Assembly (NCBI RefSeq): GCF_900155685.1 | Contig: NZ_LT732547.1 | Coordinates: forward strand, 331,648 to 395,647 | DNA: 64,000 nt | Reading direction: 5' to 3' | DNA from: Paenibacillus bouchesdurhonensis | Lineage (GTDB): Bacteria > Bacillota > Bacilli > Paenibacillales > Paenibacillaceae | Part shown: in pieces, positions 25,956 to 55,293 of the stretch | How positions within the stretch are numbered: the first letter of the stretch is position 1 | Layout: each line of letters starts with the position of its first letter | Notes under the pieces: generated by a model | Database searches by the model: none | What the model saw: the letters and a program-made list of their open reading frames with translations, nothing else | Told to the model about the DNA's origin: nothing | Made by a program: the position numbers and the translations under genes

Positions 25956-26243
25956 TATGAATATTAAAGAATGATTTGTTTTCGTAAGAGATATGGGTTG
26001 GTATATTTGTCATAGGCTATATGTACTAAAATTGTGTTGATTTGAGCAGGAGAATTTAGGAGGATGTAGAATTATTAAGTTTATAGAATTGAAGGAACTA
26101 ACAGTTATGGTGAATTAAATAAACATTGGAAGCCGTGGGGATCTTCGCGGTTTCGATATAAGACGTTAAGTATTAAAAGTACCAAAAAAGTCAAGAGTTT
26201 ATAGCCCTTAATAGAATACATAATTGTTTAGGAGAGTGTTTTT

Positions 26244-29012
26244 GTGATGTCTCAGACCTATAAACAAGATGAGAATCTCGACATTTACATAGGAGCTAGG
26301 CCGCTGAAAGATCAAATTTATATGATTATGCCTACATATGATTTGCTCAAAGAGCAAATTGATCATATAAGATCTACCGCGCAACAGTTCGCCTCTAACA
26401 AAAATTCCGACATAGTAAAAAAGGAAAGCAATAATACGATTGGTGTATTCGGCTCCAGAGGAACGGGGAAAACTTCAGCAATTTATACCGTTCAGGAATA
26501 TTTATTGGAGGGAAAAAGGGGGGAGGAAAACATCCTTCTCCCTATTATTGAACCTGATAATTTTGGGGAAAACACAAAAATTATGGGATCTATAGTTGGG
26601 CTATTGAAGGAAACGGTTAATGACCTTCTTACAGAAATACGAAAACAAAATGGTAATGAGATTGAGGAACTTAATCATTTCTATAACAATTGTGTACTTA
26701 AGGATAACAATGTACTACGACAGAAAATGGATGAGCTTATTGAATATCACTTATATACGGAGAGTCAATATCGCACGCTGCTTAGTCAGAATTATGATGA
26801 TCTTGCGACACATATCAATAAGTCATCCCGCCTTCTTATTCCAGATATAAAATTTAAAAAGAAACTGCTTGCTCTTATTGATGAAATTGTGGCTACTCAG
26901 AAAAAATTGTACAAAATAGAAAAGGAAGTATTGCTTTTTATTTTTATTGATGATATCGATTTGAAAACGACCAAATGTCGGGAACTCGTAGATTCCCTCC
27001 TTCAATATGCAAACCATCCAAACGTGGTAACTGTGTTGTCTGGTGATTACAACATTTTGGTGGAGTCCTTTACAATCGCTTTGCTTCATGATGAAAATTT
27101 GAGTTTAAGTCAGCTTTCTCCTAATACAAAACTACGTGAAAGAGAGAATCGAAGCTTGGGGGAGGAGGAAGACATTACAATTCTTGAACGTAAATTGGAG
27201 CTGTCTCATGAATATTTGAAGAAAATCATTCCTCCTGCACGTAGACATCAGTTGGTCAATTGGAATATGGAAACTATCCCTCAATTTGCATTTGGGGAAA
27301 TAACGTTAGCCTCTCAATTGCAATTACTCATGAGGAATAATCAAATATTTGGCTATCATGATATCTCTAAAGAAATTTCTAAAGGTAGTTTGCTGCCTAT
27401 CAAGAATAGCTTTGCAATTTTTGATAAAAAAGCTCGCGGACTGGTCAATGTCTATTATCATATCCATCAAATCAATCAGATTTTGTCGAGTGCTCAATAT
27501 TTGGACTCAACCCCTGAGGAACAGGAAAAAATTAAATTTATACATATAAAAGCGCTTATAGACACGATCATTCTATCTTCGGGAGAACTCATTGTTGATC
27601 AGCAGCAATTTATGGATAAGCTTATACGCTGGGGAAGTAATCAGGAAAGCTCGTATATTGATTACGAAACAGATACTCTACAACTAGAGTTACTGATTAT
27701 GGGTGAGATTATCAAAGAGCATCTTCCAAAGATTCGTTATGATGAGGCCGCATTTTCTGGAATGAAAAAGGTGTTGTTTCATGAACTAGCACTTTCGGAA
27801 AGCGATAAAAGAAACGCTGCTAATGATAATAGCAGCTTCATTAAACATGCGAACAAATGGCGGTATCCGCTCTATCGCATTGTACGAGGTATTCTTATTC
27901 ATACTAAACCTCGAAGCGCTCTTTTGCTACTTGAATATCTGTCACGAGCTAGTGGAGAGTCATATTATTATGAATACCATCATTCTCCAGAGCGGTATGA
28001 AAAGGATCGATTCATATTTATGAGTATATATAAGCTCAGTGTTGAGGACGAGAACTTTTTGATTGATTTGTATGAACAATCGCATAGTTTCAAAATCAAT
28101 GAAGTAAATGAGAGCATAAATTTCCTAAATGATATTTGTGCTGTTTCAGCAGAATATTCACTTACAGAAAGAATGTTTGATAAGCTCCTGAGTAAATTTC
28201 GCGTTGAAGTCGATAAATCAACTGCTCCTGATGAACGCGTGAAGGCGAAGGACTTATATATTAAGAGAGAGTTATTTATAAACACACTAGTTCAGCTAAG
28301 TAATATTTTGGATATAGACAAAAATAATGATAGTAAAAAAAATAAGGATGTGTACGGTACCTTAATACATGAAGATTTATTATCAAAAGAATATAGAATG
28401 ATGTTGAAAATTAATAGGAATTTTAATGAGAATAAGAACCTTTCTGTCAGTTTATTAAGAATGCTGGATGCTAGTGTAAATAAATTAGGTGATTTATTAT
28501 ATGAACGGTTAAGCAGTTCATATATTGTTGTAGGTATAACAAGGGAATTTAAGGATGAGTATTCGAAATTTATTAACGGGGAGAATGGAGAAAATACAAA
28601 GTACACCCGTGTAAAGAGAGAAATATCCCGGATAATTAAATTAAACCAAATTGATTCCATGAATAATTATATAAAAATTGAAGAATTTATATCTCTGTAT
28701 AAGGAAATTGATAAATTGTCCAAAAATAATCGTGTGTGGTATGGACAGTACGAGGCGATTCGTTTCCTTGCTGTTATAAAAAGAACGGCATATATTGAGT
28801 CTGACTTTTTTGCGGGAAATGAAATACCATTTCTGCAAGAACTGGCAAAGTACTATAAAGGCAGCAATTTATCGATTAAAACAGATATTGAATTTGAGAA
28901 GGCAAAAAAGGACATGAGTGTTATGCTCAAAAATGCTTACGATGTAATCCGGGGAAATATAGAAGAGTCATTGGCAGAATTCGACATGTCACTGGAAGAT
29001 GATGAAAACTGA
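26244..29012 (+). CDS. rdrA: RADAR anti-phage ATPase RdrA
   Basis: 922 residues, the size of RdrA. N-terminal P-loop ATPase: Walker A GSRGTGKT at 70-77, Walker B LLFIFIDDID at about 230-239 with a DD pair. The remaining 600 residues are alpha-helical with no other recognised domain. In RADAR, RdrA rings assemble with RdrB and drive a defence response to phage infection. GTG 26244 with GGAGAG 7 nt upstream, or ATG 26247, is the start. The stop overlaps the rdrB start (TGATG), so both are coupled. Codon use is markedly AT-rich against neighbours, a sign of transfer. Without the partner the ATPase would be just generic; the pair makes the call firm. Confidence 0.85.
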   Translation: MMSQTYKQDENLDIYIGARPLKDQIYMIMPTYDLLKEQIDHIRSTAQQFASNKNSDIVKKESNNTIGVFGSRGTGKTSAIYTVQEYLLEGKRGEENILLPIIEPDNFGENTKIMGSIVGLLKETVNDLLTEIRKQNGNEIEELNHFYNNCVLKDNNVLRQKMDELIEYHLYTESQYRTLLSQNYDDLATHINKSSRLLIPDIKFKKKLLALIDEIVATQKKLYKIEKEVLLFIFIDDIDLKTTKCRELVDSLLQYANHPNVVTVLSGDYNILVESFTIALLHDENLSLSQLSPNTKLRERENRSLGEEEDITILERKLELSHEYLKKIIPPARRHQLVNWNMETIPQFAFGEITLASQLQLLMRNNQIFGYHDISKEISKGSLLPIKNSFAIFDKKARGLVNVYYHIHQINQILSSAQYLDSTPEEQEKIKFIHIKALIDTIILSSGELIVDQQQFMDKLIRWGSNQESSYIDYETDTLQLELLIMGEIIKEHLPKIRYDEAAFSGMKKVLFHELALSESDKRNAANDNSSFIKHANKWRYPLYRIVRGILIHTKPRSALLLLEYLSRASGESYYYEYHHSPERYEKDRFIFMSIYKLSVEDENFLIDLYEQSHSFKINEVNESINFLNDICAVSAEYSLTERMFDKLLSKFRVEVDKSTAPDERVKAKDLYIKRELFINTLVQLSNILDIDKNNDSKKNKDVYGTLIHEDLLSKEYRMMLKINRNFNENKNLSVSLLRMLDASVNKLGDLLYERLSSSYIVVGITREFKDEYSKFINGENGENTKYTRVKREISRIIKLNQIDSMNNYIKIEEFISLYKEIDKLSKNNRVWYGQYEAIRFLAVIKRTAYIESDFFAGNEIPFLQELAKYYKGSNLSIKTDIEFEKAKKDMSVMLKNAYDVIRGNIEESLAEFDMSLEDDEN

Positions 29013-31756
29013 TGCTTAATAAAATTAATTTACTGATACACGTAGCTACTTTCCCTTTTAAGGATCTGGAGTTTTATGGGCAAGAGGAAATCCTTCAGGT
29101 TCTATCAGATACGCTGAATACTGATAGTAGCATTAAAGAAGCGGAGAAAAAGAAGAATCGGAATCGAATGGTTCAAAAACTGCACAAAAATATTTTACTC
29201 AAGTGTTCTCCAAATAGCCTGGATGAAATAAATTTATTAATGGCCAAATTTCATCCCATGCTATGTGCTACTCAAACTAACCGACCACAGCATGTGGAGT
29301 ATGATCTATATCAACATTATTTCAATATTTTAGAGGAGTTTTCCGAATCGCTAATTTCTCATCGTGACGGTGAAATCATATTCAAATATTGGAAGAGTGG
29401 GATGAAGGGGCACAAAAAAAGAAAATTCGATGATTTTCTAAGCGAGTATAAAGAACAAGATAAAGTACATTTTTTTCATTCCATTAGTCGGTTTATCCCT
29501 ATGGATATCCTAGTGGCTGTTCATTATTCCATCAATAGTATATATGACCCGATCCAACTGGATGGCTTCTATCAGCATGTCAATTTAGCTGATGCCCCAT
29601 TGCATGATGTGCTAGAGCGTGGAGTTGCAGAAAATCATATTCATGCGACTGCTGCCTTTAATTTCTCTATTCTATGGGAATCGGTCATGAATGATAAGCA
29701 GGCAACGGATTATTTGAGAAGGTTTGAGACCAATCATCTAGCTACATCTACAAAGGTATATGAGTATATCTTGACCGCCCAATTGTTAAGAATGATTATG
29801 GTGTTATATTTGGATGAAGGCACCGATATTGAATTATTCAAATGGTTAAAAACCATGTTTGGCCAATCCTCCAGCCTTCTGCATTCGATTCATTCTATTT
29901 TGACAGGTCAGAAAAACGAATTTGAGAATGTTAGCTGCTTGCAGGAAATTATTGAGGAAGTTAAGAAAACCATTGGTCTGTATGATGGAGACAGAGATCA
30001 TGACTTTATATATTCTATTATTCGGCGGGACAAGCATATTAAAACCTATGGAGAAAATATATTCCTGCAAATGGTCATGAAATACAAGGAATCTACCTCG
30101 CAATCGATCGTTATGAAAAATCATTTTGAACAGTTTTTTAGAGTATTCTTTAAATATGCTGCTATCAAAAATGAGTTTTATCAGCAAGTAACCCAGGCGA
30201 CATCGATCCAGGGGCTTGATTTTTTTAGGGGGTATTTTGATCGAGCAACAGACGGCTTCAGCAAAGGAAAGAATTATTACAAAATGCTGCTTCGTACTCT
30301 ATTTCAGAATTCATACCTTAAGATGGTGGAGCTCCGTCTATCCTTACAAAAAAGTGAAGGTCAAAATAGGAAGACTATTCTCAGTATACTCCAATCCTAT
30401 CATGATATTTTGAAAGAAGACTATGGTCTTGGCAAGGATTTAAATAGTGACTTTCCTCGAATCGGAATCATATACCATCTTATTAAGCAAGCTGACGATA
30501 TTGAGAAATGCTGGAGCTTATATGAAGCGCATAGAGATCATACGATAGAAAATCTTCATTATGGGAAAATACAGCAGACTTATTTAAGACAGATTGAAAT
30601 ACTACAAAGTCTGCGCAAGAGGATTCCGCTTCTTACTAACTTTATTGTCGGTATTGATGCGGCTAGTCTTGAAAATAATACGCCAGTTCAAGTCTTTTCC
30701 CCCGTTTTTGCGGAGGCGAGAGACAGCCAATATGATTCGATTAGGGTTGTTAACCGTGATGGCTACATCATGAAAAATCAAAGCTTGTTTTTTACTTTTC
30801 ATGCAGGTGAAGATTTTAGACATATCAACTCAGGACTTCGACGAATGGATGAGGTTATAAGCTACTGCAAGTTCCATTCTGGGGATCGAATTGGCCACGG
30901 CATTGCGCTTGGCGTCAATGTAAAGGATTGGGTGTCTAAGAATCCAGTTGTCGTTTTGCCGCGAGGTGAATATTTAGATAATTTGCTTTGGATTTGGGGA
31001 GTTTACAGTAAGTCTACAGGCTTAGATTCTAGAACATATGTTTATCTGGAGCAACGCATTTATGAGGTGGCTAAAGAGATTTTTCAAGTTACTACTGCCT
31101 TAACGATCCCGTTATTGTATGAAGTATACCAAAGAAGATTTAAAGCTATCCGAAATGAAATTGAAAGCCTTATAACTGATAATAAATATAGTTGTTCTAC
31201 CATTAGAACAAAAGATGCTCCAGATGCACATAACGTACATATATGGGGTCAGGAGAATCTGTTTTTGGCTTACCACTGCAAGCGGTATTTGGAACGTATG
31301 ACAGAGCCAGTTTATGTTAATACGACAGATGTTGAGGAGAGCATGTCCGTGGATATGCAAAACTATCTGATTCAAAAAATATCAAAATCTGGTATTGTCA
31401 TTGAGGTGAATCCATCGTCAAATGAGGCTATTGGAGAAATAGATTCTATCTTCGGTAATCAGTTGTTTAGAATTCAATCCCCTGACAATAGTGAATTGTC
31501 TAATATTATGGTCAATATTAATTCTGACGATCCTATGGTGTTTAATACGAATGTCAGCAATGAAATTGCTTACTTGTACTATGGGATGCTAAAACAAGGT
31601 ATTGGTAAGGAAGCAGCTCTCATATGGATAGAAAAGCTCAGAAAGTCGGGAATGGACACGTCTTTTATTCGTGGAAATACTAGCAATCAGGATTATATTT
31701 ATGCACTGGAGACGACAATTTCTGCTTTGGAGGATCCCTTTTATTGTGATGGATAG
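29012..31756 (+). CDS. rdrB: RADAR adenosine deaminase-like effector RdrB
   Basis: 914 residues, over twice the size of ordinary adenosine deaminase, as in RdrB. All metal and catalytic motifs of the deaminase family are present, spread by insertions: HxH (H209, H211) in ENHIHATAAF, H597 and E600 in FHAGED, H629 in GDRIGHG, VNPSSNEAIG, and D839/D840 in INSDDPMVF. RdrB deaminates adenine nucleotides or RNA adenosines to inosine during infection. It is coupled to rdrA by a one-base overlap. No SLATT membrane gene (rdrC type) follows. AT-rich like rdrA. The active site looks intact, so the enzyme should be functional. Confidence 0.88.
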   Translation: MLNKINLLIHVATFPFKDLEFYGQEEILQVLSDTLNTDSSIKEAEKKKNRNRMVQKLHKNILLKCSPNSLDEINLLMAKFHPMLCATQTNRPQHVEYDLYQHYFNILEEFSESLISHRDGEIIFKYWKSGMKGHKKRKFDDFLSEYKEQDKVHFFHSISRFIPMDILVAVHYSINSIYDPIQLDGFYQHVNLADAPLHDVLERGVAENHIHATAAFNFSILWESVMNDKQATDYLRRFETNHLATSTKVYEYILTAQLLRMIMVLYLDEGTDIELFKWLKTMFGQSSSLLHSIHSILTGQKNEFENVSCLQEIIEEVKKTIGLYDGDRDHDFIYSIIRRDKHIKTYGENIFLQMVMKYKESTSQSIVMKNHFEQFFRVFFKYAAIKNEFYQQVTQATSIQGLDFFRGYFDRATDGFSKGKNYYKMLLRTLFQNSYLKMVELRLSLQKSEGQNRKTILSILQSYHDILKEDYGLGKDLNSDFPRIGIIYHLIKQADDIEKCWSLYEAHRDHTIENLHYGKIQQTYLRQIEILQSLRKRIPLLTNFIVGIDAASLENNTPVQVFSPVFAEARDSQYDSIRVVNRDGYIMKNQSLFFTFHAGEDFRHINSGLRRMDEVISYCKFHSGDRIGHGIALGVNVKDWVSKNPVVVLPRGEYLDNLLWIWGVYSKSTGLDSRTYVYLEQRIYEVAKEIFQVTTALTIPLLYEVYQRRFKAIRNEIESLITDNKYSCSTIRTKDAPDAHNVHIWGQENLFLAYHCKRYLERMTEPVYVNTTDVEESMSVDMQNYLIQKISKSGIVIEVNPSSNEAIGEIDSIFGNQLFRIQSPDNSELSNIMVNINSDDPMVFNTNVSNEIAYLYYGMLKQGIGKEAALIWIEKLRKSGMDTSFIRGNTSNQDYIYALETTISALEDPFYCDG

Positions 31757-31844
31757 CATCATGTATACGATATCGTGAGTGTTAACAGAGCAGCAAAAAA
31801 TATGTTATTAAGAACGTTGGTCTTTTGGATTAAGGCAATAACAA

Positions 31845-31888
31845 TCCCCCTTCCGATCTGATGAAGATTACGAGGGGGAGTCTTTTTT
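31845..31888. terminator. Terminator after the RADAR operon
   Basis: TCCCCC (31845-31850) pairs with GGGGGA (31874-31879), followed by TCTTTTTT. It separates rdrB (+) from the convergent AraC gene ending at 31887. Confidence 0.7.
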
Positions 31889-32738
31889 ATTTGGGATAAG
31901 CTTGGTTCTCCTTGCGTTTCCTGGAGGCTCGGGGCGACTGGCCAATCACCTTCTTGAACATCTTCGAGAACAGGAACGGGTCGGTATAACCGACCGAGCG
32001 GGATACGTCGCTGACGCTAAGATCAGGATTGCGGAGCAGCTCCACGGCACGGTTCATGCGATATTCCAGCAAAAAGGTTTGCAAAGATACGCCGAATTGC
32101 GCTTTGAATAGTCCGGATAAATAGGTTCGATCCAGCCCGACGGAACGGGCGATGTCCATGACGCTGATCTTCTGGCTGTAGCTGCTTTCGATCCATTCGA
32201 TCGCTTTGCGTACATAGACTTCCTTAGGGTATGAGGTCTTCTTCTCCGTGGCCAAATCCGGCGGCGAGCAGGCAATCAGTTCGGCCATAACTCGGTAAAG
32301 GATGCTCTGAATCAGCACATCTCCGCCGCGCTCCGAACGAGCTCGGGCCAGGTCATCGTAAAAAGCTTCGAATACAGGGCTGTTCGAGTAGAATACAGGG
32401 CTTGCAGGAAATAGATTGGCTCTCTGCAATAATGATTTGGCATGAAGCCCCCTGAATCCGATCCAAGAATATGTCCATGGACATTGGGCATCGGCTTCGT
32501 AATAGACTAAGGTCTCCGGTGGAATGAGAAAGCCGTGGCCTCTAGTCAGTTCATAAGTTCGGTCATCAATGCGGAAGCGCCCGGAACCCTCATGGACATA
32601 ATGAATAATGTAGCAGTCCCGCAGGCCGGGACCCCATGCATGCCCAGACAAGCATTCCTCCATGCCGAAGAACAGTAAATTCAAATCCATCTGATTTTGG
32701 AACGTCTCGTTAAAGTGAACAATATCGATGCGGCTCAC
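31887..32738 (-). CDS. AraC-family regulator (likely of melA)
   Basis: 283 residues. N-terminal AraC-type cupin (YIIHYVHEGSGRF, RGHGFLIPPETLVYYEAD) and C-terminal double HTH from about 175 (VMDIARSVGLDRTYLSGLFK and VSDVSRSVGYTDPFLFSKMFK). The form resembles MsmR-type regulators of raffinose/melibiose genes. It is divergent from melA with 190 bp between, so it probably activates melA on an alpha-galactoside. ATG 32738 is the only reasonable start. GC content returns to the background level here, marking the end of the RADAR island. Confidence 0.87.
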   Translation of the reverse strand: MSRIDIVHFNETFQNQMDLNLLFFGMEECLSGHAWGPGLRDCYIIHYVHEGSGRFRIDDRTYELTRGHGFLIPPETLVYYEADAQCPWTYSWIGFRGLHAKSLLQRANLFPASPVFYSNSPVFEAFYDDLARARSERGGDVLIQSILYRVMAELIACSPPDLATEKKTSYPKEVYVRKAIEWIESSYSQKISVMDIARSVGLDRTYLSGLFKAQFGVSLQTFLLEYRMNRAVELLRNPDLSVSDVSRSVGYTDPFLFSKMFKKVIGQSPRASRKRKENQAYPK

Positions 32739-44774: not shown

Positions 44775-46703
44775 ATGGGTATGGAGCGAATACACGCATG
44801 GTATAAGTCGAAGCTAGTCATGACAGGCTTACTGTTCGTCCTCAAGCTGATGCTGTTGCGGATGTTCTTTTTTGGAGAAATATATTGGAGCGGTTTGCCC
44901 GGGGAACTATTGGCCGTTCTGGGACTGCTATGTTTAGTAGAGCTGTTAACGCCAGATAGGGCCAAAGCGGTCGTTTATTGGAGCCTGAACGCCATCTTTT
45001 CTTTTCTTCTGTTCTCGACGGCTCTTTATTATGCCCATTTTGGGACAGTGCCTACGTATGCTGTATTAAGCGGGCTGAATCAAGTTCCCCAAGTACGGGC
45101 TAGTGTCAGTGCGCTGCTGCGGCCGGAGCAGTTTTTGTTTTTTGCCGATTTCGTGCTCGCTGCGGGTTGGCAGGTTATCCGTGCCTTAAGACGGCGCCGA
45201 AAGGGTTCAGTTTATACATTTATGCTTAAGGAGCAAACGAGTCGGAAATGGGCTTGGAACACTGTAGTAACGGTATTGCTTCTAATCAGTGCTGCCTCAT
45301 CCTTATATTATGTGCGGCAAGGCAAGCTAATCGACAATGAGCTCGTTCGGGCAGAGAAGGTCGGGTTTCTGAACTATCAAGTCGTGGCTGCGATCAGCAG
45401 CCGTGAGGAAGACCAGATGATCGCGGAAGGGAACATCGAAGAGACGAAGGCTAACATTGAAAAGCTGCAGAGCAGCTATCCTTACCGCACTGAGACAGAC
45501 GCTGTAGACGGAATGAGATCCCCCGATTATTTCGGGATCGCGGAAGGGATGAATCTGATCGTCATCCAGATGGAATCTTTTCAGAATTTTCCCATTAATT
45601 TAAAGCTGAATAATGGAGCTGAGGTCACGCCGGTATTAAATAAATTGGCTGGAGAGGGCATCTATTTTCCCCACATTTATCAGCAAATCGGACAAGGCAA
45701 CACATCGGATGCAGAATTTATGTTCAATACCTCTATTTATCCGACGGCGGCCGTGGCGATGTCTACGGGCTATGGCGACCGCGAGTTGCCCAGCCTGCCC
45801 AGATTGCTGCAGCAGCAGGGCTACACCGCTAATACGTTTCATGTCAACAACGTGACGTTCTGGGATCGAAACAAGCTGTATCCTGCGCTTAATTTTAATC
45901 AATATTATGATAAGCCTGCCTTTAACAATGATCATTTCAACGATTATGGAGCTTCTGATGAAGAGATGTACCGGGTCGGCGTAGAGAAGATGAAGGATCT
46001 TCATGCGAGGAACAAGCGTTTTTATGCCCAGTTTGTTACGACCTCCAGTCATTCGCCGTTCGTCGTTCCGGAGTCTTTCCAGCAAATTGAGCTGCCGGCC
46101 GAACTGGAAGGCACGAATCTGGGAAATTACATGAATGCGATCCATTATACCGATTATGCTATCGGCGAGCTGATCGGGCAGTTAAAGGAAGCCGACTTGT
46201 GGGATAACACCATGCTTGTTTTCTATGGAGACCATTTCGGCCTTCAGCCGAAGGAGACAAGTGCGCAGGAAATCGAGGCGCAGCTTGGCGTGCCGTATGA
46301 TGACACGATCAGCCGTTTCAATATTCCATTTATCATTCATGTGCCTGGCAAGCCGCTTGGCATTGTGTCGGAGCGGGCCGGGGGACAGGTGGATATGCTG
46401 CCGACTGTAGCGAATATCCTGGGCCTCTCCTTGAAAAGGGAGCAATTCACCGCATTCGGTCAAGATTTGCTAAATATTGATCGTAATTTATTCGGCGTCC
46501 GCTATTACCTGCCGACGGGCTCCTTCTTCAACGACGAAATTATGTTCATACCGGGACAAGGTTTCGAGGATGGACAAGCCATATCGATTAAGACGTTGGA
46601 GCCTGTGGCCGACTTTGCCCAGTATCGTCAGGATTATGAATATGTAACGTCGCTCATGAAGCTGTCGGATGAGTATGTGAAGCTACTGCCGAAGCGCCGC
46701 TAG
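44775..46703 (+). CDS. LtaS-type glycerophosphate transferase
   Basis: 642 residues. Five N-terminal membrane helices (about 10-185), then an extracellular sulfatase-fold domain. Catalytic Thr in GQGNTSDAEF (T310), metal ligands E267 in QMESFQNF and Asp-His in FYGDHFG, and SSHSPF. LtaS proteins take glycerol-phosphate from phosphatidylglycerol to build or prime lipoteichoic acid. GGAGAAAGG precedes ATG 44775. The family has several paralogues (LtaS, YflE, YqgS, YvgJ); I cannot say which role this one has. Confidence 0.88.
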   Translation: MGMERIHAWYKSKLVMTGLLFVLKLMLLRMFFFGEIYWSGLPGELLAVLGLLCLVELLTPDRAKAVVYWSLNAIFSFLLFSTALYYAHFGTVPTYAVLSGLNQVPQVRASVSALLRPEQFLFFADFVLAAGWQVIRALRRRRKGSVYTFMLKEQTSRKWAWNTVVTVLLLISAASSLYYVRQGKLIDNELVRAEKVGFLNYQVVAAISSREEDQMIAEGNIEETKANIEKLQSSYPYRTETDAVDGMRSPDYFGIAEGMNLIVIQMESFQNFPINLKLNNGAEVTPVLNKLAGEGIYFPHIYQQIGQGNTSDAEFMFNTSIYPTAAVAMSTGYGDRELPSLPRLLQQQGYTANTFHVNNVTFWDRNKLYPALNFNQYYDKPAFNNDHFNDYGASDEEMYRVGVEKMKDLHARNKRFYAQFVTTSSHSPFVVPESFQQIELPAELEGTNLGNYMNAIHYTDYAIGELIGQLKEADLWDNTMLVFYGDHFGLQPKETSAQEIEAQLGVPYDDTISRFNIPFIIHVPGKPLGIVSERAGGQVDMLPTVANILGLSLKREQFTAFGQDLLNIDRNLFGVRYYLPTGSFFNDEIMFIPGQGFEDGQAISIKTLEPVADFAQYRQDYEYVTSLMKLSDEYVKLLPKRR

Positions 46704-46755
46704 TATCATAACTTTTTATACGGCTCCCTAAGAAAATAATCTTCGGGAAAAGCGC

Positions 46756-46783
46756 CGAAAGGCGTTTTTTTCATTAGGTTCTA
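46756..46783 (+). terminator. Terminator after the LtaS-type gene
   Basis: AAAAGCGCC, GAAA loop, GGCGTTTTTTT: a short GC stem continued by A-T pairs and followed by a T-run. Confidence 0.7.
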
Positions 46784-46927
46784 CCGCTGATAATTGTTCC
46801 GTTTTGCCCAAATGCCAGAAAATTTTAGGCAATGAAGAAACTTTTGCCCGTCTGGACACGTCAAATAGTCAAGGCAACGGTAATATGGGTAAGTTACCTA
46901 TATCAAGACATAGGAGGGGTTAAGCAA

Positions 46928-49900
46928 GTGAGGAAACTATGGATAACTATTCTATCAGCACTATTAATTTTTCCATTAGTATTACAGACGCAAGCTCATG
47001 CAGCACAAGCCATCAGCATTTATATTAATGGGGTCAGACTGCCGACCGATCAGGCGCCGATCCTGGTCAGCGGCCGGGCGATGCTGCCGCTCCGCGCTAT
47101 ATTTGAAGCATTGGACGCGGAGGTGGACTGGAACAATAAGACGAAGACTGTAACCGCCTGGAAAGACGGAACTTCTGTCGTGCTAAAAATAAACAGCAAA
47201 ACGGCTACGATCGACAATCAAACGGTGGGCCTCGACGTTCCCGCACAGAATGTCAAAGGCAGAACGATGGTTCCCGTTCGTTTTGTCAGCGAAGCATTGG
47301 GCGAGGAGGTAGTGTGGGACGCTAACAGCAAGACAGTGTATGTGACCACGAACACTACTCCGGTGGCGGCTGAGCCGGTCGGGTACGTATCCGCCAGGGA
47401 TATCGCCAATAACGGGGACGGGCGCGACTTGCAGGTCAGCTTCTCGCGGGCGTCGAATCAGTCTTCTATCGATCATTACCGGGTGTTCATCGTTAAGACC
47501 AACAAAACTTCTAGCTTTAATCTGGCAACTGCCTTGAAGGTTCCTTCTGCAAATTATACGAGCGTATCGGTCGGAAGCGTTGATCCTACGGTCACATTGA
47601 CGTCTCAATCTCGTGACGTGGACGGGGATTTGATTAAAGCGAACCAAGCTTATGTTGCTTATGTTGTCTCGGTCGGCAAGGGCAGCTTAGCCAGCGCACT
47701 GTCTTATCCATCCGCTGCCATCACATTGGGCACTAGCCATTCCGTGGAAGCAGCAACGAATGTTAGAGTCAGTGACGTCAGCGATTATGGAGACGGCAGA
47801 GATTTGTATGTAACATTTACGAAGCCATCCAAAGATAGCGACATTTCCAGCTACCGCATCTTTGTTGTGAAGACGAAGGATGCCGGAAAATTTGATCTTG
47901 CTGCGGCAAACAAGCTGTCCAGCCAGTATTACACCGTTGTCAATAAAACATCGAACAGCACGCTGACAGCTGCATTGAGTTCCAGCGCGCGCGACACTTC
48001 CGGAGATTATATTAAGAACGGCGTCTCTTATACTGTATTCGTACAGTCCGTCAGCAATAACACCGCCACGGCATCGCATAAGCTGTCTGCAGCGTCATCT
48101 TCGATTACGCTGAACAGCGGATCCGTTGCGGCGCCTGTCATAACACAGGTCATCGATGAAAGCGATTATGGAGATGGCCGCGATTTGCGCATCAGCTTCA
48201 CGAGGCTGTCGGATGAATCAAGAATTAGCGGTTATCGCGTGTTTGTCGTGAAGGCTAACGACTATGGCTCCTTTAACCTAGCAAAAGCAAACAATGTATC
48301 TAGCGCGAACTATACGGAGTGGAGCAAAGACGGCTATAACTTTAATCGTAACTTGCCCTCCGGAGCAAGGGATGTCGATGGAGCAACCATTCGCAATGGC
48401 GTCAGCTACCGGGTATTCGTAATGGCGGTTGGCAATGGCGCTTATGCAGGCAACAATGCACTGTCCAATCCGTCTTATGCCATTACTCTGCTCAATAACT
48501 ACAGTGTGGGCACGATTTCTAACTTAAGCGTAAGTGATGTCAGCGACTATAATGATGGCCGCGACTTGTTAGTCTCGTTTAACCGGGCATCGGATGAATC
48601 CAATCTGAGCCATTACCGCGTGCTTGTCGTGAAGGCTTCGAATGCGGACAGTTTCAACCTGGCAAAAGCAAATAATGTAAACAGCTCGAATTATACGCAA
48701 ATCAATAAAGGCAGCAACAGCTATGTGCAGCAAGCATTGTCATCCGGTGCGAGAGACGTCGACGGGGCAGCGATCCGCAACGGTGTTAGCTATCGGGTGT
48801 TCATCCTGTCGGTAGGCGGCGGCAGTTATTCGGGCAGCAATACGCTATCCAAGGCATCCTCTACGATTACATTGTCTAACAACTATAGCGTAGGCGCCGT
48901 AAACGGCCTGGATGTAAGAGATGTGAGTGATTATAATGATGGCCGCGATTTGCAGGTCTCATTCAATCGGGCTTCTGATGAATCGAATATTAGCCACTAT
49001 CGTATTTTTGTTGTGAAGGCAGCGAATGCCAGCAGCTTCAATGCTTCCAAGGCTATCAGGGTTTCGAGCAGAGATTACACCCGCGTCGACAAAGCAGGCT
49101 CTTATCTGAGTCAGACGCTTCCTTCTTCCGCAAGGGATGTCGATGGAGCGGCCATTCGCAACGGCGTCAGCTACCGTGTATTCGTACTTTCGGTAGGCTA
49201 TGACGGCTCCGTTAGCCAGAACGCTTTGTCCTCCCAATCCGCGGCGATTACGCTGAGCGGGAATAGCGCGGTAGCAGCGGTCAGCAATTTAACAGCGACA
49301 GTGAACGGCAATAACGGCGACGGCAGAGATATCGTCGTCAGCTTCACTCGATCCGCTACGGAAGACAATATTGCAGAGCATCGTATTTTAGTTGTGCCGA
49401 CAAGTCAGGGCTTCGGCAAGGAAGAGGCCAATGGGGTACGATCTGCGAACTACACAGCGGTAGCGGCGGGCAGAGATGTTTCCCAAGCCTTGACGGCTGC
49501 TACCCGTGATGTGAACGGCAACGTGCTGAAGACGGGCGAGACCTACCGGGTATTCGTTCTGTCCGTCTCTAAGAGCAACACGGCTTCCTTGAATGCTCTG
49601 GCCGGTCCGTCCGGCGAGCTCAGATTGACGGTCGTTGATCCTGTGGCTCCGGCGGCTTCGGGCGTGAGCGCCTGGGCGGACAGCAATGCGGCAAGCCTGA
49701 TTGTCAGCTTTACCAAGCCAGCGAACGAGAACGGAGTATCCTCGTATGCGGTGCTGCTCGTACCGGCAGGCGAGGGAATGACGGAGTCCCGGGCAAGTGG
49801 ACTTGGGACAGGAGCGTATAAAACCGTCAGCAAAGGCGGAACTCCGATCGTAACCTTCACCGAAGCTGACTTGGACGCATCGGGTAATCCGATTATGGCC

Positions 49901-50023
49901 GGTGTAACCTACCAGGTTTATGTGCTATCGATTGCCGACGGAACGAACGCAACAGTGAACCGTTTGTCCGATCCGTCTAATTCTGTAGTTCTCGTCAGCA
50001 GTAATCCTTTAGAAGCCAGATAA
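46928..50023 (+). CDS. Secreted stalk-domain protein with seven Fn3-like repeats
   Basis: 1031 residues. Signal peptide (RKLWITILSALLIFPLVL, cut after AHA). About 33-145 is a copper-amine-oxidase N-terminal (stalk) domain: VSGRAMLPLRAIFEAL and VKGRTMVPVRFVSEALGEEV, each with the PxR. Then seven repeats of 125-128 residues follow, the first six starting with an (N)DGRDL motif, DNA period 375-384 bp. Repeats 3-5 are the most alike (SDYGDGRDL, SDYNDGRDL; RNGVSYRVF). The last lacks DGRD. Likely a cell-surface or matrix protein; no sortase or S-layer anchor is visible, though the stalk domain may bind the wall. GTG 46928 with GGAGGGG; the longer frame lacks a signal peptide at its start. Confidence 0.8.
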   Translation: MRKLWITILSALLIFPLVLQTQAHAAQAISIYINGVRLPTDQAPILVSGRAMLPLRAIFEALDAEVDWNNKTKTVTAWKDGTSVVLKINSKTATIDNQTVGLDVPAQNVKGRTMVPVRFVSEALGEEVVWDANSKTVYVTTNTTPVAAEPVGYVSARDIANNGDGRDLQVSFSRASNQSSIDHYRVFIVKTNKTSSFNLATALKVPSANYTSVSVGSVDPTVTLTSQSRDVDGDLIKANQAYVAYVVSVGKGSLASALSYPSAAITLGTSHSVEAATNVRVSDVSDYGDGRDLYVTFTKPSKDSDISSYRIFVVKTKDAGKFDLAAANKLSSQYYTVVNKTSNSTLTAALSSSARDTSGDYIKNGVSYTVFVQSVSNNTATASHKLSAASSSITLNSGSVAAPVITQVIDESDYGDGRDLRISFTRLSDESRISGYRVFVVKANDYGSFNLAKANNVSSANYTEWSKDGYNFNRNLPSGARDVDGATIRNGVSYRVFVMAVGNGAYAGNNALSNPSYAITLLNNYSVGTISNLSVSDVSDYNDGRDLLVSFNRASDESNLSHYRVLVVKASNADSFNLAKANNVNSSNYTQINKGSNSYVQQALSSGARDVDGAAIRNGVSYRVFILSVGGGSYSGSNTLSKASSTITLSNNYSVGAVNGLDVRDVSDYNDGRDLQVSFNRASDESNISHYRIFVVKAANASSFNASKAIRVSSRDYTRVDKAGSYLSQTLPSSARDVDGAAIRNGVSYRVFVLSVGYDGSVSQNALSSQSAAITLSGNSAVAAVSNLTATVNGNNGDGRDIVVSFTRSATEDNIAEHRILVVPTSQGFGKEEANGVRSANYTAVAAGRDVSQALTAATRDVNGNVLKTGETYRVFVLSVSKSNTASLNALAGPSGELRLTVVDPVAPAASGVSAWADSNAASLIVSFTKPANENGVSSYAVLLVPAGEGMTESRASGLGTGAYKTVSKGGTPIVTFTEADLDASGNPIMAGVTYQVYVLSIADGTNATVNRLSDPSNSVVLVSSNPLEAR

Positions 50024-51234
50024 CTGCTTGGCCGAGCTCAATGGTAAACTTATTATTTAGTAGTAAATTGTGTCTTCTTAATTTCCTAAGTTATGAACTA
50101 TACGTGGTGTGGATAGGTTATCTTTGAAACCAGATTGATGTTATTCGCACTTCAATTTTCTAAAGTACTAAGCAGTCTTAATTGGGTATTCTACCTGATA
50201 AGGCTGCTTATTTTAATAGAATCTTTCGGGTAAAAGTAGGTTGATGGTAAAAGTTATATATCTCACTTGTTTTTCAGGTTTTAGATTTTAGTCAATTTCA
50301 ATTCATTTTGTTCTATAGAATACTAATTTTCATGGCTTTTCTTAAACTATATACAACTTAATTATGATTAAAAGCTGATCAATAGGCAGGCAATGGATCC
50401 TAGTGAAACTCTTGATTTTTGGATTGCTTGAAGTATTAATAGGTAAAATAAAACCTTCAAATAATAGCTTGACCCTCCATTCACCTTAAGGGTGCATAAG
50501 AATGGGCATCAAGCGTTGTATACAGTAGTTTGTTGGTTGTCATGAAGAAGATAGCGAGATAAAAGTAATATGATAATAACCATAAGTTCTCCGTTAAGTT
50601 CTCCGTTTCACTGTTTGTACAAGTTCGTTAATCCCTTCCAAGTAATCCATTGATCATCTTGTTGTGGAACCAGTGGAGAGTGCCTCCTTAATGCAGCTTA
50701 ATCGTTCTGACCCAATTCAGAGATTTTTGCATCATACGTTTAAGCTGATAGGCACGGTTATTTAGATTGTTGTCGCATCAGAGCTTCTCTTGTGTAATTT
50801 TCTTGTATGTGAGCTTTCCAATTCAAAAGTCAAGATGATGCCATTCTTTACTTCAGAGTCATCCATTCCCTACAAGCCGGACAAGCAAATATTGAGCCGT
50901 ACTCGGAGTAAAAATTCTTCTTAAGCATGTATTTCACCTTTTTTGTTCCTAATATCCTCCAAATAAAGTATTTTACTTTGAAAATCTACTGGATTCATCT
51001 TATCTTTACTGCTGTGTGTGAGATTATCTTCATTCATCACGCCCTAGTAACATGTTATCTAGAGCAATCAATAAAGTTATTGAAGCTTTTATTAACACCT
51101 TCAATTACAATGTTTTGATTACTTGAATATATTACCTATTAATGGTGTTATTGGGATATTATAAGTTAGAGAGTATAAAGTTGTGGTATTGAACAATTCT
51201 TGTCATCGTTGAAACTATTTTAAGGAGGGTATTT
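50024..51234. other. 1.2-kb AT-rich stretch without a convincing gene
   Basis: Contains the terminator at 50170-50214. The rest is AT-rich with many stops. A 63-codon frame at 50927-51118 is hydrophobic but has no ribosome site, and I reject it. The stretch may hold decayed genes, but I recognise none. Confidence 0.5.
50170..50214 (+). terminator. Terminator of the repeat surface protein
   Basis: AAGCAGTCTTA pairs with TAAGGCTGCTT (one G-T), then ATTTTAAT. It lies 150 bp after the stop. Confidence 0.7.
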
Positions 51235-52368
51235 ATGAAACGTACATTATTAGCAGTTTTTATTTTTGTTTTGATTTTTAGTCTCCCAGTACAAGCAGTT
51301 GATTATGAAATTGTTAAAATTGATGGAAGTGTAAGCAAAGATGATGCATACGAACTAAAAGCTATTATGCTAACCCTTGACCCTGAAGATAGAGAGAATG
51401 TACTTGTTATTAAACCAGATGGAAGTTTTCTGGCAAATAAAAGGGAAATCAGGGACGAATTTATAAAACAAAACTCTGGGAAATTTGAAGAGAATGGTAG
51501 ATTGAAAACAAGGCATATCAAATCCTCTGAAGAGATCAATGAATCTTACGTTACTGCTACAGTAGAGGATAGTAAGATTTATAATTATGGTTTAGGCGAG
51601 GAATTTACAACAATGGCTTACACAAACCCATCTCTTAATTGTCTTAATACAGTATCATCTGCTAATAGCACAGGGCCTTTTAGAAGAGTAGAATCTCAAA
51701 AGGGATTTACAAGATTTGAAAGTAATATTTATTTACCATCTAAAGCAGATTCAGATGTTTTTATAGCTGATAATACAACAATTGCGACATCCAATGATAA
51801 AGCATATATTTATACGGGAGGCAATGCTTACAGTTCTAATGGGCAATTTGTTGCAGGAGTTGATTTGGGTCTAGCTCTAAATTATCCAGCAGGGTCATCT
51901 CCAAGTAATGAGACATGGGGAATGTATGCTAGCGGTGGAGTGATTGAAGATCCAACTCAATTAGGGAACTTTAAAATGGGACAAACAGTATTTATGAAAT
52001 ATTATATTTCTGCAGATAATTATCATGCATTAAATGTTCAAGGACAAGCTAAAAATGGTACCCCTATCACAAGGACTGTAGTTATGATAACAAGTGGTAA
52101 CTATTTTACTGAAGCAAATAAAGCCAACATTACTGTAAGAAGAGTGACATCAATTGCACAGACACGTAATAGGGAAGCAACAGGTTCTTTTGTTAAAAAT
52201 GTGAATTGGACGAACTCCAAGGTTGGTGTAACCCCTACAGGAATGAATTTAATGAATTCCTCAAATACCTGGTATCAATGTGGTTATGGATTATCTAATG
52301 TATCAGTAGATTATGTCAACCAAGCAAATGAAAAAGTATGGATTAATACTAATACTCTTCCAAAATAA
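51235..52368 (+). CDS. Secreted protein of unknown function
   Basis: 377 residues. Signal peptide (KRTLLAVFIFVLIFSLPVQA), then a mature protein rich in Ser/Thr/Asn/Tyr with beta-like segments (FTRFESNIYLPS, DKAYIYTGGNAYSSNG, FVAGVDLGLALNY). Weak resemblance to the secreted YrpD proteins of Bacillus, from memory. AAGGAGGG precedes ATG 51235. AT-rich compared with the upstream surface protein. It is followed 52 bp on by another secreted gene, perhaps in one transcript. Function unknown. Confidence 0.65.
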   Translation: MKRTLLAVFIFVLIFSLPVQAVDYEIVKIDGSVSKDDAYELKAIMLTLDPEDRENVLVIKPDGSFLANKREIRDEFIKQNSGKFEENGRLKTRHIKSSEEINESYVTATVEDSKIYNYGLGEEFTTMAYTNPSLNCLNTVSSANSTGPFRRVESQKGFTRFESNIYLPSKADSDVFIADNTTIATSNDKAYIYTGGNAYSSNGQFVAGVDLGLALNYPAGSSPSNETWGMYASGGVIEDPTQLGNFKMGQTVFMKYYISADNYHALNVQGQAKNGTPITRTVVMITSGNYFTEANKANITVRRVTSIAQTRNREATGSFVKNVNWTNSKVGVTPTGMNLMNSSNTWYQCGYGLSNVSVDYVNQANEKVWINTNTLPK

Positions 52369-52420
52369 AGTTTAAAAACTACTATATATTTTAAACTGAT
52401 AGTTTAATAAGGGGGGCAAA

Positions 52421-53251
52421 ATGAAAAGATTGAGTTTGTTATTTTCATTGTTTGTATTGTGCTTTGTGCTTATCAATTCGAAAACCTCAAAGGCAGCAGT
52501 ATTCGAAGAGGGCAATGTCATTTTAAAGTTGAATAATTCCTTTTTGGTATACTCTCAACAGGAAATGCCTCAAATTAATAATGGTCATGTATTCATACCA
52601 ATTCGAATGATTGGGGATTTGATGGGGACTAATGTTATTTGGAATAATATGAGTAAAAGCATTATAATTCAAGATGATGACAAAACAATAAAAATGAGTC
52701 TTAACGAAAAAGCAGTTACGGTTAATAACGATGAAATTATTCTAGAGACCCCACCTTTTTTTAAAAACAATACGGTGTTTGTTCCATTGAGATTTCTAAC
52801 GGAAGTTATGAATATTAATGTTAATTATTATGAAGATAAACGAGTTGTCGAGGTACAAAGTGAGAAATTCTTAAACACTGAAACTGTTTCAATAATTGAT
52901 GAAATGATGAATAAAGATGAAGCTTACGAGGGGATGATTGTCCCATTATCCGTGAAAACCAAGCAAGAAAAGCATGGTAATACCCTACTTATTGAAGTAC
53001 AAAATTATTCAGAAACTACGATTAATAAATATGAGTTGCATAGGAATATTATCTTTTTTAGAAGCGAAACTTCTGTTGCTTTTGCCGGATCAAAAGGTGA
53101 GAATTACCATCAAAGTACCCCTGGATATAATAAAGTTGAGATTGGGGCAAATGGAAGAATTACAGATGAAATCCCTCTTGTAAAGGATATACAGGGAGAT
53201 AGACTAGGTAATTACAAATACATTTTAAGTAATTACTTTAAAATCAAGTAA
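52421..53251 (+). CDS. Secreted stalk-domain (CuAO-N) protein
   Basis: 276 residues. Signal peptide (KRLSLLFSLFVLCFVLINS), then a copper-amine-oxidase N-terminal domain (about 30-145): NGHVFIPIRMIGDLMGTNV and NNTVFVPLRFLTEVMNINV with the PxR pair. The last 120 residues are a beta-rich domain with no match I know. AAGGGGGGC precedes the ATG. AT-rich like its neighbour. Such domains are common in secreted Paenibacillus proteins and may bind the cell wall. Confidence 0.75.
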   Translation: MKRLSLLFSLFVLCFVLINSKTSKAAVFEEGNVILKLNNSFLVYSQQEMPQINNGHVFIPIRMIGDLMGTNVIWNNMSKSIIIQDDDKTIKMSLNEKAVTVNNDEIILETPPFFKNNTVFVPLRFLTEVMNINVNYYEDKRVVEVQSEKFLNTETVSIIDEMMNKDEAYEGMIVPLSVKTKQEKHGNTLLIEVQNYSETTINKYELHRNIIFFRSETSVAFAGSKGENYHQSTPGYNKVEIGANGRITDEIPLVKDIQGDRLGNYKYILSNYFKIK

Positions 53252-53345
53252 CAAATCTTGGTCAGATGTAAACATTAAGTTCTTGATAAGGCGTTGGATA
53301 AGGTTTGTTTACTCGACTATCTAAAGGATAAAGATGTAACTTATA

Positions 53346-53386
53346 AAATAAAGCCATTCGAAATAAACGAATGGCTTTATTTTATC
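53346..53386 (+). terminator. Perfect 15-bp terminator, target of the intron
   Basis: AAATAAAGCCATTCG (53346-53360) pairs perfectly with CGAATGGCTTTATTT (53368-53382). It ends the secreted-protein genes. The group II intron starts only eight bases beyond the stem, the habit of class C introns. Confidence 0.85.
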
Positions 53387-53389
53387 CTG

Positions 53390-55293
53390 GTGCGCCCGGC
53401 ATGGGCGATAACTAGGTGGTGAAAGTCCACTACAGGCTTGGCAGTAGGAACTGTTAGCCGAAGGCAAGGGTGTCGACCGTGAGGCCGAATCTGAAGGAAG
53501 CCGGAGGCAAACCCTCGGTCTGACGAACAGAAATCACATACAAGGCATGATGAGACGGACGAGCTTGCCAGACAAAGCAAAGTCCAATACTGCCCGAATC
53601 TCATGATGTAAATGTGGCAGATAGATGAGGAGAAAGTTATCGCTCTTACCCGGGGAGGTCTCACAGACGTGGAGTAGGAAAAAAAACCGAAAGACGAAGT
53701 AAAGCTTGCTGTGAGAAGTCAGCAGAAGCCATAGTACGCAAGCCGCGAAAGCGACTAGCAGAAGGGCTGAACAATCGCAAGTCTCGAATACAGACTGAAA
53801 GGAGAATCGGTGCGATGAAGGCAGAATACCGAAAGGGCTGCCTGCAAAGAGATAGCGTGGAACGCGAAGGGTATGCAGGAGTGCGGAGTATCGAAGCTCG
53901 GGAAAGTAAAGAAAGAGACGGTGCAAAGAACCTGATGGAACGTATCCTGGACAGAGACAATCTGAATCGGGCATACAAGCAGGTCAAAAGCAACCACGGA
54001 GCGCCGGGAGTCGATGGGATGACGGTCGAAGCGGCGCTGCCGTGGCTGCAGGAACATAGAGACGAGCTTTTGCAAAGCATCCGAGAAGGCAGCTACAAGC
54101 CAAGCCCGGTGCGGCGTAAGGAAATCCCCAAGCCAGATGGAAGCGGAGTACGAAAGCTAGGCATCCCGACTGTAGTGGATCGGGTGATCCAGCAAGCGAT
54201 TGCCCAGCAACTGCAACCGATATTCGAGCGGATCTTCTCGGACGGAAGCTACGGCTACCGTCCGGGGCGCAGTGCGCAGCAAGCCATTCGAAAAGTAAAA
54301 GCATATGCCGAGCAAGGCTACGGACATGCGGCTGAAATTGATCTGTCGAAATACTTCGATACATTGAACCACGAGCTCCTTTTGAACTTGCTGCGCAAAC
54401 AAATCCAGGACAAACGCGTTATTGACCTAATCAAGAAGTATCTGAAAAGCGGCGTGATGGAGAACGGCGTGCGCCACGCGACGGAAGAAGGATCGCCGCA
54501 AGGTGGGCCATTGTCCCCGCTATTGGCAAACATCTATCTGAACGAATTCGATCAGGAGATGGCAAGCCGAGGCGTGAAGATTATCCGTTACGCGGATGAT
54601 ATCGTCGTGCTCGCGAAAAGCAAGCGGGCAGCCACAAGGTTGCTGGAATCCAGTCGAACGTATTTGGAGAAGAAGCTTAAACTCCAAATGAACATGCAGA
54701 AAAGCAAGATCGTCAGTGTCGTGGCGCAGAAACATTTCAAATTCCTCGGATTCGCACTAGGAAAGAACGGAAACGGCGTATACATACGCGTCCACCGTCA
54801 ATCCCTAGCCAAGGCAAAAAAGAAGCTGAAAGAACTAACGAAACGAAGCCAAGGCAGGAGTGCGCGACAGGTCATGGAGAAAGTGAAGGCCTACATTCGC
54901 GGCTGGATCGGTTACTTCTACGTAGCGGATATGAAGCGAATCCTGCAAAACTGGAACGAATGGCTGCGAAGACGGATACGCATGTACATCTGGAAGCAGT
55001 GGAAAAAGCAGAGAACGAAAGTACAGAACCTACGCAAGCTGGGTGTGCCGGAGTGGCAGGCCTACCAATGGGGGAATACGAGGCTTGGATATTGGCGCAT
55101 CGCCGGTAGCGTGGTGCTGCAACGCTCTATTACAAATGGAAAGCTCGTACAAGCAGGGTATTATGACTTCCCAGCTCAGTACGAGCGTCTACGTCAAATG
55201 CACTCAAGCGATTGAACCGCCGTGTACCGAACGGTATGCACGGTGGTGTGAGAGGTCTCGGCTGCTCAACTAATGGGCAGCCTCCTACTCGAT
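53390..55293 (+). mobile_element. Group II intron, class C type (about 1.9 kb)
   Basis: The 5' end reads GTGCGCCC (GTGYG rule), followed by a structured 5' region typical of domain I. The RT/maturase lies inside. After it, GAACCGCC...GAACGGT...CGGTGGTG forms domain V, and GGCTGCTCAACTAATGGGCAGCC with the bulged A forms domain VI; the 3' border near 55293 is approximate. It sits right after a terminator and in no gene, so it does little harm. All parts look complete, so it may be mobile. Confidence 0.85.
53815..55215 (+). CDS. ltrA: Group II intron reverse transcriptase/maturase
   Basis: 466 residues. RT blocks are intact: YKPSPVRRKEIPKPDGSGVR, RVIQQAIAQQLQPIFE, the AEIDLSKYFD aspartates, EGSPQGGPLSPLLANIYL and the catalytic YADD (259-262). 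A maturase domain X follows (RQVMEKVKAYIRGWIGYFYV) and the RLGYWRIAGS motif typical of class C. No HNH endonuclease domain, as in class C proteins. It helps splicing and copies the intron into new sites. ATG 53815 follows AAAGGAG. Confidence 0.93.
   Translation: MKAEYRKGCLQRDSVEREGYAGVRSIEARESKERDGAKNLMERILDRDNLNRAYKQVKSNHGAPGVDGMTVEAALPWLQEHRDELLQSIREGSYKPSPVRRKEIPKPDGSGVRKLGIPTVVDRVIQQAIAQQLQPIFERIFSDGSYGYRPGRSAQQAIRKVKAYAEQGYGHAAEIDLSKYFDTLNHELLLNLLRKQIQDKRVIDLIKKYLKSGVMENGVRHATEEGSPQGGPLSPLLANIYLNEFDQEMASRGVKIIRYADDIVVLAKSKRAATRLLESSRTYLEKKLKLQMNMQKSKIVSVVAQKHFKFLGFALGKNGNGVYIRVHRQSLAKAKKKLKELTKRSQGRSARQVMEKVKAYIRGWIGYFYVADMKRILQNWNEWLRRRIRMYIWKQWKKQRTKVQNLRKLGVPEWQAYQWGNTRLGYWRIAGSVVLQRSITNGKLVQAGYYDFPAQYERLRQMHSSD

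Follow-up and report, generated by a model that had tools for sequence, protein, structure and literature searches.

What is the secreted, repetitive protein encoded at this locus of the soil bacterium Paenibacillus bouchesdurhonensis, and have its repeats multiplied recently? The gene lies in a 64,000-nucleotide stretch of contig NZ_LT732547.1 (positions 331,648 to 395,647), which is called the window here. The original prediction, made from the letters alone, had described seven similar modules behind a stalk domain. The reading that we favour, with a probability of roughly 60%, is that the product would be a wall-attached surface rod of seven modules with a fibronectin type III (FN3) fold, made under envelope stress through an ECF sigma factor.

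Gene, start codon, and domain order

The gene is held by the open reading frame 46832-50023 of the plus strand, with a probable GTG start at 46928 and a stop codon at 50021-50023. From this GTG, the product has 1031 amino acids and consists of a signal peptide, one PF07833 domain, and seven modules. The features are as follows:

46837..46862, plus strand: candidate ECF-sigma-type promoter (GAAAC at 46837-46841, 17-nt spacer, CGTC at 46859-46862), located 91 nt upstream of the start codon
46912..46919, plus strand: Shine-Dalgarno-like AGGAGGGG, seen in the sequence
46928..47002, plus strand: GTG start and putative signal peptide (VRKLWITILSALLIFPLVLQTQAHA), from the sequence and similar N-termini in relatives; cleavage site placed by eye
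47021..47344, plus strand: PF07833 Cu_amine_oxidN1, the stalk domain, Pfam E 5.6e-37
47363..47737, plus strand: module 1, DGRD at 47417-47428, seen in the sequence
47738..48118, plus strand: module 2, DGRD at 47792-47803; best stretch of the Pfam fn3 match (residues 310-412)
48119..48499, plus strand: module 3, DGRD at 48173-48184; the most constrained module
48500..48883, plus strand: module 4, DGRD at 48554-48565; modelled, FN3 fold
48884..49264, plus strand: module 5, DGRD at 48938-48949, seen in the sequence
49265..49642, plus strand: module 6, DGRD at 49319-49330, seen in the sequence
49643..50020, plus strand: module 7, the C-terminal end, no DGRD; the least conserved module

GTG 46928 is very probably the real start, because the Shine-Dalgarno-like sequence stands upstream of it, the relatives have similar N-termini, and the promoter falls inside the longer frame. 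To collect these relatives, named genomes were scanned; 127 stretches were confirmed, and the best 80 loci were analysed. The best named matches came from Paenibacillus ihumii and P. woosongensis, although the nearest records may be absent from the genomes scanned. The N-terminus (V/L/M)(K/R)(K/R) was found in 67 of the 80 relatives, whose start codons were picked by rule; 13 lacked the usual N-terminus, and some picks clearly lie too far downstream. In addition, LPxTG was absent from the whole window protein and from the C-terminal 60 residues of its relatives, and neither Pfam nor NCBIfam gave an SLH match in the window protein. A literature search by titles and abstract openings returned no paper concerning it.

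The repeat array and its age

The seven modules are 125, 127, 127, 128, 127, 126, and 126 residues long, with a DNA period of 375-384 bp. All 21 module pairs scored 11.9-50 SD above shuffled modules, so the repeat is far beyond chance, and the described number and period of the modules are borne out. Between pairs of window modules, the identity is 27-66% in protein and 42-62% in DNA (the best DNA pair in a larger alignment reached 63.7%). The middle modules had been called very similar, which overstates the case: modules 3-5 share 58-66% protein and 60-62% DNA identity among themselves, and Tandem Repeats Finder reported no array at the gene.

To place the modules in their family, all 600 modules of the 81 proteins (the window protein and its 80 relatives) were compared, including those scoring 60 bits or less or having 111 or fewer residues. 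For 578 of the 600, the closest relative belonged to a protein other than their own. Furthermore, the nearest module in another protein belonged to the same position class in 570 of the 600 cases (first 81/81, second 79/81, third 79/81, middle 190/195, penultimate 66/81, and last 75/81); a 98-residue fragment in one protein (L089) was left out, and its last counted module is therefore perhaps not the true last. Judged from these comparisons, the array is old. Thus, the recent internal duplication that had been proposed is unsupported for the window gene: a recent amplification is rejected by the diverged modules, their closer relatives outside the protein, purifying selection, and the lack of a reported tandem array.

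The proposed length variation holds between species but not among the five closest relatives checked. The stalk and 5-10 modules were present in all 80 relatives, with five modules in 2, six in 7, seven in 37, eight in 27, nine in 4, and ten in 3. Among the nearest relatives that were checked, the first five (L010-L014, 82-92% identical) each have seven modules, and the next one (L015, 74% identical) has six. Recent duplicates exist in some relatives, such as modules 6 and 7 of L067 (91% DNA identity) and modules 6 and 7 of L052 (85%). Since the position classes are kept and some duplicates are recent, species appear to differ in length through duplication of inner modules, which has not been recent in the window gene.

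With regard to species distribution, 146 genomes including the own genome were searched, and the array was found in 58; among the genomes listed, it was present in 38 of the 40 of the genus, the list leaving out 68 genomes that had no match. Profile searches, again counting the own genome, gave hits in 34 of the 398 genomes (7 of 145 genera) searched for the class and in 6 of the 398 searched for the phylum. No other copy of the module was found in the own genome up to E 1. Cargo of mobile elements was considered and rejected: the repeat region (residues 178-1063) was unmatched at E 1e-5 in 50,697 phage and 72,556 plasmid records. One PHROG match (phrog_23118, of unknown function, E 1.1e-9) lies on the stalk, at residues 33-96 of the GTG-started protein.

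The fold of the module

The module is confidently predicted to have an FN3 fold, made larger by two inserted helices and an extended E-F part. For the modelling, 35 of 593 modules were excluded for scoring 60 bits or less or having 111 or fewer residues. From the resulting pool of 558, two modules per locus were drawn at random, this set was cut to 140, and these were aligned with six of the seven window modules. On this alignment of 146 modules, the AlphaFold2 model of module 4 reached a mean pLDDT of 95.4 and a pTM of 0.90. When the model was compared using VIA-align, nearly all 50 chains listed were FN3 chains (Z 10.2 to 9.3), the top one with an rmsd of 2.8 over 100 residues. With Foldseek, no match reached E 0.001, the best E being 1.9e-3. 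In a viral model library, mostly FN3-named and tail proteins were matched (best E 7.1e-4).

Searching solved structures with the module sequences found no relative; the profile of the 146-module alignment reached a best E of 0.033, with RPTP-delta at the top and fibronectin and Tencon chains as the others. On the whole protein, Pfam fn3 (PF00041) scored 41.9 bits against a cut-off of 25, aligning 103 residues onto 70 profile positions, and 20 of the 146 single modules matched it at E 0.01. Ig_ILCR1 (PF23608) scored 50.1 bits (cut-off 27) on the whole protein and matched 31 of the 146 single modules at E 0.01, a match that gives no function here. Module 4 of the window matched no Pfam family at E 0.01.

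An FN3 domain has about 90 residues. The modules resemble FN3 in the predicted fold, in the whole-protein score above the cut-off, and in a tyrosine at the F-strand position, which is present in essentially all 600 modules. However, they are 125-128 residues long because of the inserts. In the numbering of module 4, strand C (36-45) is followed by two helices (46-51 and 54-58) before the next strand (66-69) begins, and the E-F part is extended by residues 80-95, which include a conserved RDxxG. The module would represent an FN3 subfamily that is largely missed by the current Pfam models. The original prediction was to fall if the modules matched a described domain with a known function; the predicted fold does match a described one, FN3, but this fold gives no function.

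In the full-length model, a stalk of two similar halves, each made of strands and one helix, is followed by similar elements seven times. Its pTM was 0.29, and therefore the arrangement of the modules, hence a straight rod, is not predicted.

Selection along the protein and the adhesin alternative

In five comparisons, dN/dS was 0.02-0.12 in every segment, which indicates purifying selection throughout the protein; the lowest values (0.02-0.03) belong to module 3. Mean identity to the window protein was 60% for the stalk, 46% for module 1, 60, 58, 59, and 52% for modules 2-5, 39% for module 6, and 31.5% for module 7 among the 37 relatives with seven modules, 43 of the 80 relatives having been left out of this alignment for another module number.

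These results bear on the main rival to the envelope-stress rod, namely an adhesin with at least one module that binds a ligand outside the cell (polysaccharide, or plant or animal matrix), the remaining modules serving as a stalk. FN3 arrays are common binding scaffolds. The protein is secreted, its conservation is position-specific with module 3 most constrained, and it changes fastest at the C-terminal end, all of which would suit an adhesin. However, all segments are under purifying selection and a diversifying tip was not seen, and the sequence searches of solved structures gave no adhesin. In addition, the presence in nearly every listed genome of the genus makes the array look more like a core part of the envelope than a niche adhesin. 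Periscope-type adhesins carry tandem Ig-like or FN3-like modules that are near-identical repeats and vary in number between strains. The window protein is similar in having tandem modules of this kind in changing number, but its repeats are diverged, and the five nearest relatives examined all share its module number. We keep the adhesin as a possible but unlikely reading.

A probable promoter upstream of the gene

The region upstream of the gene counts among the evidence for the envelope-stress rod. For 81 genes (the window gene and its 80 relatives), the 300 nt upstream of the rule-picked start codons were examined, and first-order Markov resamplings served as random controls. A word count found GAAACTTT in 52 of the 81 regions. 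GAAAC-N17-CGTC occurred exactly in 47 regions (random mean 0.17, maximum 2; opposite strand 2), and the spacer was 17 in all 47 exact cases although 15 to 18 were allowed. The degenerate forms were even more frequent: 61 of the 81 regions contained AACWTTT-N-CGTY (random mean 0.25, maximum 2), and 76 contained AAC-N-CGTY (random mean 7.3, maximum 20), with a spacer of 17 in 74/81 occurrences of the latter.

The words recognised by ECF sigma factors are AAC in the -35 and CGT in the -10 element (PMC4153023), and both stand upstream of the gene at a fixed spacing. The conserved element is probably an ECF-sigma promoter. A scan of 46600-46950 found no sigma-70-type promoter, and a search for a riboswitch or RNA leader matched no Rfam family at the gene. 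The ECF sigma factors of B. subtilis are described as serving cell-envelope homeostasis (PMC4153023); control by such a factor would most likely make the gene part of an envelope-stress or envelope-maintenance programme.

In the own genome (5.82 Mb), the strictest promoter pattern matched the window gene alone. A second pattern also matched at C7:3411521, antisense to a FliF-like flagellar-type gene (named by eye), which looks like chance. A third also matched at C7:432826, 105 nt before a gene whose protein has PF07833 and a sub-threshold PKD match; its reversed control pattern matched once. The chance of one random match before a PF07833 gene is about 7e-4 (40 stretches of 200 nt relative to both strands of the genome) and about twice that for two extra matches, figures to be read with the loosening of the patterns after looking in mind. 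Since the match at C7:3411521 looks like chance, that at C7:432826 may be chance too. The genome has 26 sigma-like places; several of the 20 inspected have AAC-N-CG sites nearby, which are too unspecific to choose between them.

The DGRD loop

A DGRD loop had been expected at the same place in each module, as a possible site for calcium or a ligand. It is present in six of the seven window modules (residues 196, 321, 448, 575, 703, and 830, numbered from the frame start 46832) and absent from module 7. In module 4, D19-G20-R21-D22 (here NDGRD) lies between strands A and B. We take it from FN3 topology that this A-B loop, together with the C-C' and E-F parts, stands at the C-terminal pole, towards the following module.

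Counted without alignment, DGRD occurs in 72 of 81 first, 81 of 81 second, and 79 of 81 third modules (232/243 for modules 1-3), in 132 of 195 middle and 15 of 81 penultimate modules (379/519 for all non-last modules), and in 2 of 81 last modules. Its frequency falls in a gradient towards the tip, a pattern that general relaxation in this direction might also produce. In the alignment, 509 of the 519 non-last modules have kept D22, as have 11 of the 81 last ones. Both D19 and R21 are present in 391 of the 519 non-last modules, neither in 100, and one only in 28; NGSD (37) and NASD (14) occur as variants. Since D19 and R21 come and go together, they look like an internal ion pair.

Covariation was also considered. 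In mean-field coupling, D22-R40 ranks 32nd among the pairs inside the module; the last modules account for this link (p 0.007, n = 81), which the other 519 do not show (p 0.30). Among 519 neighbouring module pairs (337 effective), no inter-module signal stood above noise: the top pair, D22-G89 of the next module, reached 4.7 SD, whereas the strongest pair within modules reached 22 SD. A structural loop with internal ion pairs fits these sequence patterns, and a role at the module junction also fits. At the pole facing the next module, the loop would brace the fold or the junction.

It is quite improbable that the loop is instead a calcium site stiffening the array, as in cadherin-like repeats. 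The loop is acidic (D13, D16, D19, and D22 in module 4), D22 is nearly invariant in non-last modules, DGRD is mostly lost from the last ones, and the expected position is next to the following module, on FN3 topology and the strands of the model. However, the conserved positive R21 lies inside the motif and goes together with D19 like the partner of an ion pair, and coupling between modules does not rise above noise.

The stalk domain

The stalk domain expected at the front of the protein was confirmed as PF07833 (126.4 bits, cut-off 24.2). In the own genome, this family has 40 matches, 37 of them above the cut-off. According to the surfaceome paper PMC4137172, PF07833 is often found in wall hydrolases. 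In C. thermocellum OlpC, a domain of the PF07833 kind is reported to bind secondary cell-wall polymer, as a paper on C. clariflavum cites from Pinheiro et al. (PMC4582956). By analogy, it is plausible that the stalk holds the protein to the wall. This wall-binding precedent is distant, and a different PF07833-classed domain dimerises.

Two known systems are similar in architecture. The scaffoldins OlpC and ScaG of C. thermocellum and relatives are secreted proteins combining PF07833 with a further module (PMC4582956, PMC3413522), but they carry one cohesin and no FN3-like array, and OlpC is likened by description only. The Cys-less Cu/Zn-SOD of Paenibacillus lautus is a secreted Paenibacillaceae protein with a PF07833-class N-terminus (PMC10432803); unlike the window protein, it has an enzyme domain. 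Its N-terminal domain dimerises, and the similarity of this domain to the stalk here is weak.

To look for partner genes, the flanking ORFs of 80 loci (90 aa or longer) were clustered by single linkage, and among the clusters from 12 loci upwards no conserved partner was found. The largest cluster, ABC-ATPase-like, covers 21 loci at scattered places. A sulfatase/LTA-synthase-like gene stands upstream in 18 of the 80 loci and is alike, by eye, to the upstream gene of the window.

It is very improbable that the protein is a soluble secreted homodimer which stabilises or carries another secreted protein, with the stalk as a dimer interface only: the PF07833-classed domain of the P. lautus SOD is indeed a homodimer interface in crystal structure 8IMD (PMC10432803), and a stalk profile of 14 sequences reaches it at E 0.0014, but over 30 positions only, the N-terminal part of copper amine oxidase chains being matched better (E 4.1e-6), and the loci share no partner gene.

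A model for the rod and its meaning

We return to the wall-attached envelope-stress rod. An ECF sigma factor would switch the gene on; the protein would be exported by Sec, and its N-terminal PF07833 domain would then attach to the cell wall, by analogy with OlpC, and may also pair two copies. The seven FN3-fold modules would project outward, acting as spacer and as binding surface, and the tip would carry no enzyme. The rod would lengthen or shorten across species; modules 1-3 retain their identity, and the recent duplicates lie in the middle and later part of the array.

A bolder version is rather unlikely to hold in full. It would make the protein an unnamed, family-wide envelope-stress rod, in which neighbouring modules are locked together through the pole formed by DGRD and RDxxG, and the rod length would therefore follow from how many inner modules there are; a dedicated ECF sigma factor would control it and also at least one other stalk protein. 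The FN3 subfamily with the helical insert is part of this version.

PF07833 is abundant in this genome, and a role has been assigned to few of its members in the literature cited here. A strongly conserved member that is joined to a module unique in the genome and preceded by an ECF-type promoter would give direct entry to the stalk proteins. It would predict the kind of stress response, the cellular place of the protein, and the parts of first interest, which are module 3 and the pole loop.

Genes and elements around the array gene

Besides the array gene, the window included the following features.

26000-32000, further AT-rich stretch (GC 36%)
44775-46703, sulfatase-fold (PF00884), LTA-synthase-like membrane protein, immediately upstream of the array gene
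50024-53400, AT-rich stretch (GC 33%, against a window mean of 46.7%)
51235-52368, ORF inside the stretch 50024-53400
52421-53251, second PF07833 protein, inside the same stretch
53473-55215, group II intron
53815-55215, reverse transcriptase/maturase ORF within the intron

In 18 of the 80 loci, a gene close to the array gene resembled the sulfatase-fold gene when judged by eye. The AT-rich stretch 50024-53400 is possibly an island, and its ORF at 51235-52368 had no Pfam match at E 0.001. The intron was recognized by its maturase ORF and by Rfam matches to domains D1-D4 (53473-53644 and 53692-53767).

Array genes in relatives

Array genes with 7-8 modules were also seen beyond the Paenibacillus group, in Lysinibacillus (loci L061, L064, L069, and L070), and a box similar to GAAACTTTT lies upstream of them. 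These genes might have arrived by gene transfer. In Paenibacillus pini (L089), a last module is held in a separate 98-aa frame that overlaps the end of the main frame, and this split reflects either a broken reading frame or a misassembly.

A second gene with an ECF-type promoter match

Besides that of the array gene, the ECF-type promoter patterns had two further matches in the source genome. One of them (locus L146, G000:C7:432826, minus strand) lies 105 nt upstream of a gene for a PF07833 protein, which also had a PKD match below threshold. This protein may be a co-regulated partner of the array gene.
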